Shown here: positions 13,141 through 16,137 of the stretch, in pieces
Position numbering within the stretch: position 1 is the first letter of the stretch
How the letters are laid out: each line of letters starts with the position of its first letter
NCBI RefSeq assembly: GCF_003730015.1
Contig: NZ_RJTU01000013.1
Coordinates: forward strand, 62,001-126,000
Direction: 5' to 3'
From: Epilithonimonas hominis
GTDB lineage: Bacteria; Bacteroidota; Bacteroidia; Flavobacteriales; Weeksellaceae
Length of the DNA: 64,000 nucleotides
Translations under genes and position numbers: made by a program
Notes under the pieces: model-generated
The model's input: only the letters and a program-made list of their open reading frames with translations
The model's database searches: none
What the model was told of the DNA's origin: nothing

Positions 13141-13265
13141 TTTTTAGGAGCTGTTTGACTACGTCGAACAGTTAGTTTTTATTTTTAATTTGGAGCTGTT
13201 TCCCGCTTTCCGTTGCAATCTTTTTCTTTTCCTTATGTGAAAGAAAAGAAAAAGGATTTCCACTA
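13141..13265. repeat. Interspersed GGAGCT repeat, copy A
   Basis: It contains GGAGCTGTTT twice (13147 and about 13192) and the core CCCGCTTTCCGTTGCAATCT, followed by a T/A-rich imperfect stem and AAAAAGGATTTCCACTAC. The same core is found at 14435-14514 and, inverted, at about 52905-52990. There is no coding capacity here. Confidence 0.8.
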
Positions 13266-13378
13266 CAAAACGAAGTTTAGACGATTCAAATAAAAACAAT
13301 AAAAAATATGAGTCAACCGTGGCAAGGGACTTTGTCTGTAAAACGCCATTTCGCCAGTATGATGTTACGGAAAGTGCT

Positions 13379-14431
13379 TTATTCTGTTATAAATTGTTCG
13401 TAACTACCAAGTTTAGCTTTATCAATTTGATAGTTTCCGTTAACATCTTTACAGATTATTACGCTATCAAATCCAAGTTCGTTCATTTTTTCAATAGTTA
13501 AAAGTTCTCCTTCTTTGACTTGAAATACTTTTCGTAATAACCAATCTGAAAGAGCTTTATTCGGATTCGTCATCAAAGCTTTTGAGTTGTCTTGACAAAC
13601 TTTAGCTGAAAATACTTCACCTGTTGGGATTTTTAATTCAAATAATTGATCTCTTTCAGGAAAAAAGTTAGGAAATTTCTTGTGAATTTCGATTGGAATT
13701 GGAATGTAAACTTCTCCAAAATCTCTTTTTCGTCCTCCTGCATGCCATTGATTTAGTCCACTTTTTTCAAATACAAATTTTTCTTTATTCTTAATTCCAT
13801 AAAGTGGTAAAATGACATAATTTTCACCACGAACAAATTTATCTGTTGCTGGTTTTAAAGCTTTATCTTCAAATAATTCTAAAAGTAAAGTATATGGATC
13901 TTCTAAAATTTCAATTGGAAGTTTAAAAGCGTTATCAGGAATATAAAACTTTCTGAAAAGTGTACTTTTTGAATAATTAAAACTATAAAAGTTTTTCCCG
14001 TCTTCAAATTGTAAACTTGCAGAATTTTGTTTTACAGCGTGAATGTTTTTGATGTCAATTTTGTCGTAATCAGTTTCAAATAAGACAAGTTCACTATTTT
14101 TTCTCGCAACAATATGATATAAAGAACTTTCAATATTATACAAACGATTTGCTAAATCAATTCTTTCGTTTCTGAATTCTGCTAATTTATGAGCCAAATC
14201 TTTGCCTTTATAATCGGTTAAAACTCTTGAAAGTGAATTGAATTCAGCGACTTTTTCATTACTATTATTTGAATTACAAACGAATGTCTTTAAACCGACA
14301 CCGATAGAATTATAGTTTGCATCGAATGCCGTATCAGAACGAGATAAATTTCCTGCATCAAAACTTCTACAGAAAATGTTTTCTGCTACACGGTAATTGA
14401 TAAAAGGAATTGCACTTTCGCTGAAAAGTTT
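13379..14431 (-). pseudogene. NgoFVII-family type II restriction endonuclease, start codon lost
   Basis: The minus-strand frame is open for 350 codons from 14431 down to TAA at 13379. It begins KLFSESAIPFINYRVAEN and continues through SFDAGNLSRSDTAFDANY and NSIGVGLKTFVC, ending with the C-terminal domain SGLNQWHAGGRKRDFGEVYI, FPERDQLFELKIPTGEVFSA, KVCQDNSKALMTNPNKALSD. I recognise this as the NgoFVII-like (PLD-fold) restriction endonuclease family. No ATG or GTG occurs in the N-terminal 78 codons. The frame runs straight into a stop codon (14432-14434) at the edge of interspersed repeat B. The first normal start is a TTG at 14197, which would remove conserved sequence. Most likely the repeat or an associated deletion removed the 5' end. 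The matching methyltransferase (15547-16137) is also broken. Confidence 0.75.
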
Positions 14432-14434
14432 TTA

Positions 14435-14514
14435 GGAGCTATTTCCCGCTTTACGTTTCAATCTTTTTTGTTCAATTTTCACAAAAAAGGATTTCCACTG
14501 CAATCGGAGCTATT
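14435..14514. repeat. Interspersed GGAGCT repeat, copy B
   Basis: The core CCCGCTTTACGTTTCAATCT, then TTTTTG...CAAAAAAGGATTTCCACTGC, matches copies A and C. The element is bounded by a direct repeat GGAGCTATT (14435-14443 and 14506-14514). It lies exactly between the endonuclease frame, whose upstream stop is at 14432-14434, and the stop codon of the small acidic gene (14510-14512). It therefore defines the ends of both. Confidence 0.8.
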
Positions 14515-14779
14515 GATTTAGTACATAAAAGATAAAATCAGATAATTGTTCTTCATCTTCATTAAATTTCATAACTATTTTTGAAGTTAAATTATCTACA
14601 AAAACTTGAATATCTTCTGTTGATTTTAATTCTTCAAGAAATTTGAAATCTGCGGTTTTAATGTCTTCAAATTCATTGAAATATAGAAAAATATCAGTTT
14701 TAAAACTGTCAGCATAATTATCTTTAATTTCAGATAAATACTCCTTTAAAATTTCTATTTTTTCTTCAAAATTTAGCAT
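14510..14779 (-). CDS. Small acidic protein coupled to the DUF3883 gene
   Basis: An 89-residue, strongly acidic, mostly helical protein (FEEKIEILKEYLSEIKDNY ... FNEDEEQLSDFIFYVLNQ) that I do not recognise. Its ATG (14779) lies inside the last codons of the DUF3883 gene (ATATGCTAA), so the two are translationally coupled. Its stop codon is supplied by the edge of repeat B, so the natural C terminus may have been longer. An acidic partner of a DNA-acting enzyme could be an inhibitor or accessory subunit; that is inference only. Confidence 0.6.
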   Translation of the reverse strand: MLNFEEKIEILKEYLSEIKDNYADSFKTDIFLYFNEFEDIKTADFKFLEELKSTEDIQVFVDNLTSKIVMKFNEDEEQLSDFIFYVLNQ

Positions 14780-15543
14780 ATATCAGATATTAAATGATAT
14801 TCTCTTGTTACTTTAGATTTAATAATTCTTTCTTCAAATTTTAAGTTTTTCAGTGGATTATCAATTGTAACAAAAGTTGGTAAATCATCCAAATTTAAAA
14901 CTAAAGTAACTATATAATCATTTTTATATTCTTGTGCTTTAAAGTATTCATTTTCAGTCAATCTAAACTTTCCTTTCTTTGCTCTAATACCTTTAACTTC
15001 TGCTAAAAAGGAATTTTCATTTACATTTATTTGAAAATCATATCCATCTCCATACAAACGAGCGTCTTCAATAATACCATTTTTGAAAATGTCAATAGAA
15101 TTATAATTATTCATAAAATACAATTCTGCTTCTAATCCAGTTTCTTGTAGTTTTTTGAATCTTGATTTTACAATTGGTTTTACATTAACTACAATATCTT
15201 TGATTTTAAAATTATCTTTCAAAAATAATTTGACAATGTTTGCGTATTCATATACATTTTCATTTCCAAATAAGCTATCAATCAACAATTTTCTGTGAAT
15301 ATAAGCATCACCTTTTTGCCACCAACCTTTTCTACTATTTTCAAAAAAAGGGTCGAATAAATCCATTCTGTTTTTTACAACACTTCCTGTTTCAACAATA
15401 CCAATTTCAACAAAATATTCAAAAAATGATGATTTTGTATTGAAACCAAATTGCTTAACAAAATCATTATCAAATTTGGCTAATCCATAGCCTAATAAAT
15501 TTAGTAATTCATAATTTTCGTGTTTATTCCCTTTATTTTTCAT
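14773..15543 (-). CDS. DUF3883 domain protein, nuclease-like
   Basis: A 256-residue protein. The C-terminal part (about 135-225) matches DUF3883, a restriction-endonuclease-like fold. The features are GLEAELYF (Glu138), GDGYDFQINV (Asp169), FLAEVKGIRA (Glu182, Lys184) and the helix LTENEYFKAQEY, giving an E...D...ExK arrangement consistent with PD-(D/E)XK nucleases. The N-terminal 130 residues are unfamiliar. The ATG is 3 bases after the stop of the truncated methyltransferase, and the small acidic gene overlaps its end by 7 bases, so the three form a tight cotranscribed unit. It could be the endonuclease or an accessory factor of the local defence locus; substrate unknown. Confidence 0.78.
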   Translation of the reverse strand: MKNKGNKHENYELLNLLGYGLAKFDNDFVKQFGFNTKSSFFEYFVEIGIVETGSVVKNRMDLFDPFFENSRKGWWQKGDAYIHRKLLIDSLFGNENVYEYANIVKLFLKDNFKIKDIVVNVKPIVKSRFKKLQETGLEAELYFMNNYNSIDIFKNGIIEDARLYGDGYDFQINVNENSFLAEVKGIRAKKGKFRLTENEYFKAQEYKNDYIVTLVLNLDDLPTFVTIDNPLKNLKFEERIIKSKVTREYHLISDIC

Positions 15544-15546
15544 AAA

Positions 15547-16137
15547 CTAAGCAACAAGTAGATTTGGTTCTAAATCAAAAAATAATGTTCCTCTTGTGTC
15601 TGAAAAACCTTTTCTAAGTCCTGCAATTGAAAATGCTTGACAAGGAAAACCAGCACATAAAATGTCAAATTCTTTTGGAATATAATTTTTTACAGATTCT
15701 TTTGTAATATCACCAAAAGGAACCTCACCAAAATTTTCACGATATGTTTTTTGAGCGTCTTTATTCCATTCGCTTGTATAAACACATTTTCCACCTACAT
15801 TTTGCATTGCGATTCTAAAACCTCCAATCCCCGCAAATAGGTCGATAAATTTGAACTTATAATTTTCTGGAGTTGGAAATGGAACATTTTCAACCTCGAA
15901 TAATAATTGTTGCAGAGCTTCTTCCTCTACAACTGAAATTTTATTTTCGCTTTTGTATTCTACATAGTTTTTCAAAATACTTAAAGCTTCGTCTTTATAA
16001 TATTTTGCAACGCCGTTGTGTATATTATGTAGATAGTGAGTTAGTACGGCTTTTTCTTCTTCTAAAGGTTCAACAAGCTTAATCTGATAACTCTTGTCAT
16101 CAAATTCCTCGATGCTTATTTTCTCTTTTATCAACAT
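15547..16137 (-). pseudogene. Cytosine-5 DNA methyltransferase, N-terminal half only
   Basis: A 196-residue product with a helical N-terminal extension (1-90) and then the first half of a C5 cytosine methyltransferase. Motif I is FIDLFAGIGGF (Asp99 region), and the catalytic loop is GFPCQAFSIAG with Cys166, followed by FSDTRGTLFFDL. The chain then ends in EPNLLVA and a stop. Motif VI (ENV), motifs VIII-X and the target recognition domain are absent from this and the other two frames down to the next gene. A complete enzyme would normally exceed 300 residues. Either the C-terminal half was deleted internally or the gene was cut when the DUF3883 module arrived. Methylation activity is unlikely unless another polypeptide supplies the missing half. 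Confidence 0.85.

Follow-up and report, generated by a model that had tools for sequence, protein, structure and literature searches.

Restriction-modification (R-M) systems are hard to lose: if the methyltransferase (M) goes before the endonuclease (R), the outcome is lethal. A locus on the minus strand of Epilithonimonas hominis raises the question of how both genes might go at once. It lies in a 64,000-nucleotide stretch of contig NZ_RJTU01000013.1 (positions 62,001 to 126,000), referred to here as the window, and reads ksgA, M', D, S, repeat, R', idi, where M' is the first part of a C5 cytosine methyltransferase gene, D an intact gene for a DUF3883/NOV_C protein, S a gene for a small acidic protein and R' a piece of an NgoFVII-like endonuclease gene (Table 1). 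An initial annotation had listed these pieces, all of which were found where it had placed them, and had offered two readings: either another module had replaced the central part of an R-M operon, or R and M had been inactivated stepwise. We think it fairly likely that a resident operon of M, a small gene (x) and R had its middle exchanged for a foreign D-S nuclease cassette and lost M and R together.

An intact operon at the same site in Epilithonimonas hispanica

A scan of genome contigs with R' identified 41 loci, including one from E. hispanica (L008) in which the order is ksgA, M (408 amino acids, aa), x (106 aa), R (376 aa) and idi; M-x-R is intact and D-S is absent. The initial annotation had pointed to Chryseobacterium as the place to look for an intact operon; such an operon was found, but the nearest relative found is E. 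hispanica. DNA identity between the window and L008 is 94-100% across the last 117 nucleotides (nt) of M' and 94% across the first 50 nt of R'. M' is 97.9% identical to codons 1-190 of E. hispanica M (nonsynonymous divergence, dN, 0.009 and synonymous divergence, dS, 0.160 over codons 1-189), and R' is 96.8% identical to R (dN 0.014, dS 0.400). Across the site, dS is 0.24 for ksgA, 0.16 for M', 0.40 for R' and 0.42 for idi. Because M' and R' diverge from E. hispanica as their neighbours do, while D-S differs in guanine-plus-cytosine content (D 24.4%, S 21.1%, window 34.6%), these comparisons suggest that M' and R' are resident and that D-S is foreign. A tree of the B3 DNA-binding domain of R places window R' and E. 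hispanica R as sisters (100/94), and the R arm thus appears to be local. D-S looks to have replaced codons 191-408 of M, all of x and codons 1-27 of R.

The presence of an intact operon at the same ksgA-idi site supports the replacement reading. Stepwise inactivation becomes unnecessary, as a single exchange can take out M from its C-terminal part onwards, all of x and the beginning of R. Replacement is right in outline; the new point is that the cassette recurs in other genomes with a common joint and kept reading frames.

M' covers only positions 1-94 of the 324 in the DNA_methylase profile (PF00145; 134.5 bits), in agreement with its annotation as half a methyltransferase. It retains FIDLFAGIGG, PCQAFS and RGTLFFD, everything of M past RGTLFFDLE is gone, and it is not the complete C5 methyltransferase of a functional type II R-M system. 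R', which lacks codons 1-27 and the usual start codon, is likewise not a complete endonuclease gene: TAA stands just before codon 28 and no ATG, GTG or TTG follows until codon 105, as expected of an endonuclease annotated as having no start codon. Both genes are truncated on the sides facing the module, as had been noted, but M sequence stops six residues short of the end of the M' frame; by eye, these residues resemble the leader that precedes D elsewhere. In the window, M' and R' have most probably lost their function.

Table 1. Features of the ksgA-idi locus (positions in the window)
Feature	Position	Strand	Description
M'	16137..15547	minus	196-codon frame; 15568..16137 = codons 1-190 of a C5 cytosine methyltransferase of ~408 codons
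Leader of D, in frame with M'	15544..15567	minus	tail PNLLVA + TAG, then 3 nt, then the ATG of D
D	15543..14773	minus	DUF3883/NOV_C protein, intact, 256 aa, predicted PD-(D/E)XK nuclease
S	14779..14510	minus	small acidic protein, 89 aa, 7-nt overlap with D
Repeat element (GGAAATCCTTTTTT...AAAGCGGGAAATAGCTCC)	~14431-14512	minus	abuts R'; matches the repeat downstream of R in L008
R'	13379..14428	minus	NgoFVII-like endonuclease gene without its start codon (codons 28-376 remain); open frame that still includes the B3 DNA-binding domain
Second repeat copy	13189-13268	minus	downstream of R'; E. hispanica R also has a copy behind it

Recurrence of the cassette

Whole-genome searches with D gave hits in 4/320 genomes of the family, 2/395 of the class, 6/395 of the order and 10/398 of the genus of G970, these sets overlapping. 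Distant homologues (G188, G636, G1075 and the second hit of G1050; 26-27% where measured) and a second family (family 2: G252 and the second hit of G970; 53-56%) were left out, and G003 and G713, which are the same contig stretch, were counted once as L030. Clade-1 D is thus found in 12 genomes (the window, L030, L088, L089, L090, L091, L102, L103, L104, L105, L106 and L107). The R' scan, which is biased to R-derived pieces, adds L038, L042, G716 (L044/L056), L046 and L047, for 17 in all; L047 has only the end of D on its contig.

A 5' piece of cognate M reads up to D in six of the 12 loci found with D (the window, L030, L088, L089, L102 and L105), and an R-derived piece lies behind S in six (the window, L030, L088, L102, L105 and L107). 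The whole arrangement M'-D-S-repeat-R' is present in the window, L088, L102 and L105 (with most of the L105 repeat gone), the last three being genomes of another family. According to the initial annotation, conservation of this arrangement with the same short methyltransferase in many strains would speak against a broken R-M locus. The arrangement does recur in three more genomes, but the lengths of M' differ among them; therefore it is the cassette that is conserved and not the short methyltransferase. An assembly artefact was considered and set aside, as a single-contig genome (L102/G1330) shows the same arrangement.

The right joint is common to these four loci and consists of the repeat end, an A-rich stretch and R from about codon 14-17, with an additional deletion to codon 28 in the window. 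On the left, M' extends to codon 190 in the window, 98 in L030, 271 in L088, ~94 in L102, ~296 in L105 and ~388 in G716, where the GNSV end is lost. In L089, ~11 codons of M are joined to the tail GKQADNLYK, like the M' end of L105, to give 25 codons in total. In six of the seven loci with an M piece, M' has six different lengths and its frame always ends 3-4 nt ahead of D; the exception is G716, with 14 nt between the end of M' and a D that is fused to a helix-turn-helix (HTH)-like stretch. If the L105 form is assumed to be ancestral, simple arithmetic gives (1/3)^5 = 0.004 for five in-frame deletions by chance. Because the M' frame is kept to just before D, these junctions suggest that D depends on translation arriving via M'. 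The M tail GKQADNLY shared by L089 and L105 weakens the case for a separate illegitimate join at every left junction and favours one ancestral left junction followed by in-frame deletions. A random-breakpoint argument for M always being hit was not significant and was not used.

In seven loci (L030, L107, L042, L046, L038, G716 and L047) only the B3 end of R is present. Its ATG overlaps the S end in L030, G716, L047 and, by eye, L107; there is no clear start in L038 and L046 and, by eye, an out-of-frame start in L042. In L107, B3 contains a stop and the frame of D is broken. Where S would be expected, L038 carries another small frame, and the G716 operon is spread over two contigs with an exact 55-base overlap. 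In the B3 tree (29 rows), neither the B3-only rows nor the R' rows form a single group, and the starred branches force at least four and at least two changes, respectively. A putative zinc protein of 61-63 aa with paired CxxC lies behind D or S in L090 (7166-7351), L104 (1947-2132), L106 (6543-6734), L103 (5744-5935) and L091, and is perhaps an alternative partner where B3 is absent; the L103 end looks by eye like a B3-type tail. A Vsr gene is located upstream in L089, L104 and L106; in L106 the upstream side also has a methyltransferase of another family that looks intact. The L047 locus adjoins a methyltransferase of another kind, accompanied by a HpaII-like gene.

The missing methyltransferase

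For the cognate METHYLTRANSFERASE search, the C-terminal 155 residues of E. hispanica M were compared with all 17 D-S genomes (E ≤ 0.001), several of which are drafts or metagenome-assembled genomes; the window genome is a draft. Matches were found in 10 of the 17. The only strong ones (71%) are to the truncated M' of G716 and G1141, and the other 14 places have 24-45% identity, four spanning the query at 24-28% and ten covering only its later part. This search, which reaches sequence relatives only, found an intact cognate M in 0/17 genomes, and it gave zero matches in the window genome. Beside D, no intact cognate M is present in the 16 loci whose upstream side is covered (to only ~1.8 kb in L046); L047 ends inside D.

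The window genome (G000) has six further open C5 methyltransferase genes (L001-L006). The possibility that one of these supplies the missing half of M was rejected, as none matches the cognate C-terminal part. By eye, some of their neighbours look like restriction genes.

The D and S proteins

D matches NOV_C (PF13020) with 59.2 bits against a cutoff of 22.1 and belongs to that family. The PD-(D/E)XK nuclease superfamily is marked by conserved D...ExK residues, and in D the residues D166, D169, E182 and K184, invariant in 11/11 aligned sequences, fit this motif. D is under strong constraint (dN/dS 0.03-0.24 in 28 pairs); S evolves fast and is far less constrained (0.11-0.77 in 15 pairs). S has an isoelectric point (pI) of 4.1 in the window and 4.05-4.96 in all 14 aligned homologues, and is predicted to be all-helical (predicted local distance difference test score of the structure model, 87.6). 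It was unmatched in PADLOC and NCBIfam, had no Pfam match above cutoff, and its fold gave 0 matches at E ≤ 0.001 against PDB and BFVD. Among solved structures, a search by sequence gave one non-significant hit for D (E 0.78) and none for intact R.

No near DNA match of the locus was found in plasmids, where one D relative (27%) was identified. D was not found in phages, and of 38 stretches in viral contigs that fit a pattern, 0 were confirmed. Distant D relatives lie directly behind an intact-looking C5 methyltransferase in G188 and G1050. In G716, the stretch fused to the N-terminus of D (L074:3032-3324) is HTH-like, and this fusion suggests a direct DNA-binding role for D. Judged from sequence, D-S is probably a methyltransferase-independent nuclease module.

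R', its B3 domain and the repeat

R' matches the 376-aa PADLOC REase_II profile at 105-376 (587 bits), and its only Pfam match is RE_NgoFVII_C. The C-terminal B3 domain (PF20731) is present both in R' and in the intact R of L008, as in CglI/NgoAVII-type enzymes. When a phospholipase D nuclease domain was looked for in the N-terminal part of intact R, there were zero Pfam matches and no PDB sequence match. R' is the sole R match in the window genome, full-length R was found in 0/7 genomes examined (the window's included), and relatives of R' in plasmids (6 records) and phages (3 records) are distant (all <60%).

Over 17 nt, the 3' end of S in the window (14509-14525) is an 88% match to the part of R' where B3 starts (13744-13760), and it is at this point that B3 comes after S in other genomes. 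S in the window may or may not have been cut from an S-B3 arrangement, as the match had suggested; in L088 and L102, S ends naturally at the same place as in the window and is followed by the repeat.

Proposed explanation and its alternatives

An exchange that removes the middle of the operon would kill M and R in one step, so that the lethal state of R without M would never arise. The cassette would spread by homologous exchange with its M and R pieces serving as arms, and D-S would use the old promoter of M and be translated downstream of a leader cistron derived from M'. D, as a predicted PD-(D/E)XK nuclease, would be held or tuned by the acidic, fast-evolving S and would work without a methyltransferase; in some genomes it might use the stand-alone B3 domain left from R as a DNA reader. 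A cassette armed with M and R sequences at both sides would solve the problem of R-M loss in one exchange and leave a different nuclease in place. If true, this provides a concrete route for R-M turnover in Bacteroidota and points to a small unstudied nuclease module that gets by without its methyltransferase and consists of DUF3883 plus S, sometimes accompanied by a stand-alone B3 reader.

Several observations weigh against this explanation. Five of the 12 clade-1 loci found with D (L090, L091, L103, L104 and L106) have no cognate M piece or R-derived gene directly adjoining, and the link of D-S to M and R pieces is frequent, not obligatory. The distant D of G636 has no methyltransferase nearby. 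No donor of the window cassette was found, and a methyltransferase of the same specificity and unrelated sequence would escape the search for M and may be present. The D and R trees differ, both being poorly resolved (3/15 and 4/25 inner branches starred), and common junctions may reflect exchange as well as descent. In L088, L102 and L105, dN/dS of R' over codons 30-244 is 0.05-0.08, as against 0.03-0.06 for intact R, and L102 R' has a TTG at codon 28; by these signs R' might still be made in the three genomes. Low dN/dS of M' and R' was set aside as proof of function, as resident-looking arms fit recent loss equally well; constraint near that of intact genes fits either recent damage or continued use of R'.

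That last possibility leads to a reading in which M-D-S-R is a working four-gene system, with short M' as a regulator and R' translated from an unusual start codon. The N-terminal extension of M' (codons 1-93) is kept in six of the seven loci with an M piece, and the R' frames are open from the junction with low dN/dS and, in L102, the TTG just mentioned; however, M' is only 25 codons long in L089 and has lost its later motifs in the window, and R' has no usual start before codon 105 (window and L088) or ~130 (L105), making this reading very doubtful. It is also unlikely that D-S simply entered a decaying operon by recombination between interspersed repeats, the pieces being passengers that share no mechanism. 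Such decay would account for the repeat that abuts the module 3' of S in the window, L088, L102 and L089 and lies between M' and D in L077 and L092 of family 2, and for the fact that two of the three strict repeat matches in the window genome fall at this locus. It would not readily account for four genomes with the same arrangement and a common R' junction, or for an M' frame kept up to D in all but one locus ahead of a strongly constrained gene.

A third reading, in which nuclease D and acidic S form a toxin-antitoxin pair whose presence in R-M loci is incidental, would be in keeping with the overlap of the two genes in the window, with the small size, acidity and faster evolution of S, and with the occurrence of D-S away from M or R pieces. 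This identity is improbable, given that no S was found behind D in L091 and L103, where another small gene is present instead, and that D relatives sit in R-M loci. Returning to the exchange of the operon's middle for D-S, an extended form of it would make D-S with the leftover B3 a successor parasite of R-M operons, which takes over the operon's DNA reader and promoter, needs the methyltransferase destroyed and spreads as a natural allelic-exchange cassette; a single step would then leave a defence module with no methyltransferase in place of a classical R-M operon. M might have to go, for example, because D-S attacks DNA bearing its mark or because the nuclease is incompatible with it. We regard this extension as speculative and rather unlikely.

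Comparison with known systems

The PaeR7I R-M system reportedly shows movement linked to insertion sequences. It resembles the present case in that R-M genes take part in genome rearrangement; there the R-M system moves, whereas here it is displaced by another module. The resident operon is like the CglI and NgoAVII R-M systems, which have (PMC4267653) a C5 methyltransferase beside an R with a C-terminal B3-like DNA-binding domain. DUF3883/NOV_C is described in one passage as "a novel REase domain" (PMC3710099) and is placed elsewhere in a presumed type II restriction endonuclease group (PMC10609329). D resembles such restriction nucleases in its domain and in that some of its relatives adjoin C5 methyltransferases, but at the present locus it survives in the absence of an intact methyltransferase and is flanked by fragments of a different R-M operon. 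MORC/paraMORC R-M operons (PMC2292703), in which GHKL, AIPR and Vsr genes occur, are among the closest known systems.

Related rearrangements at other loci

A second, more distant group of D (L077 and L092) lies behind a methylase of another family with a replaced end. In L092 the methylase covers 2-300 of the 324 profile positions and its end is replaced by repeat-looking residues; the gene behind it, which apparently lacks a start, gives nothing beyond an HNH match below threshold (E 0.04). In L058 (663-1577), L077 and L092, the C-terminal ends of methyltransferases have been swapped for residues that look as if coded by a repeat of the same interspersed type. At L043 (4830-6498), a C5 methyltransferase that looks intact precedes a 222-aa R in which the start and the B3 end are retained and most of the middle is lost; this is another route of losing R while M is kept.
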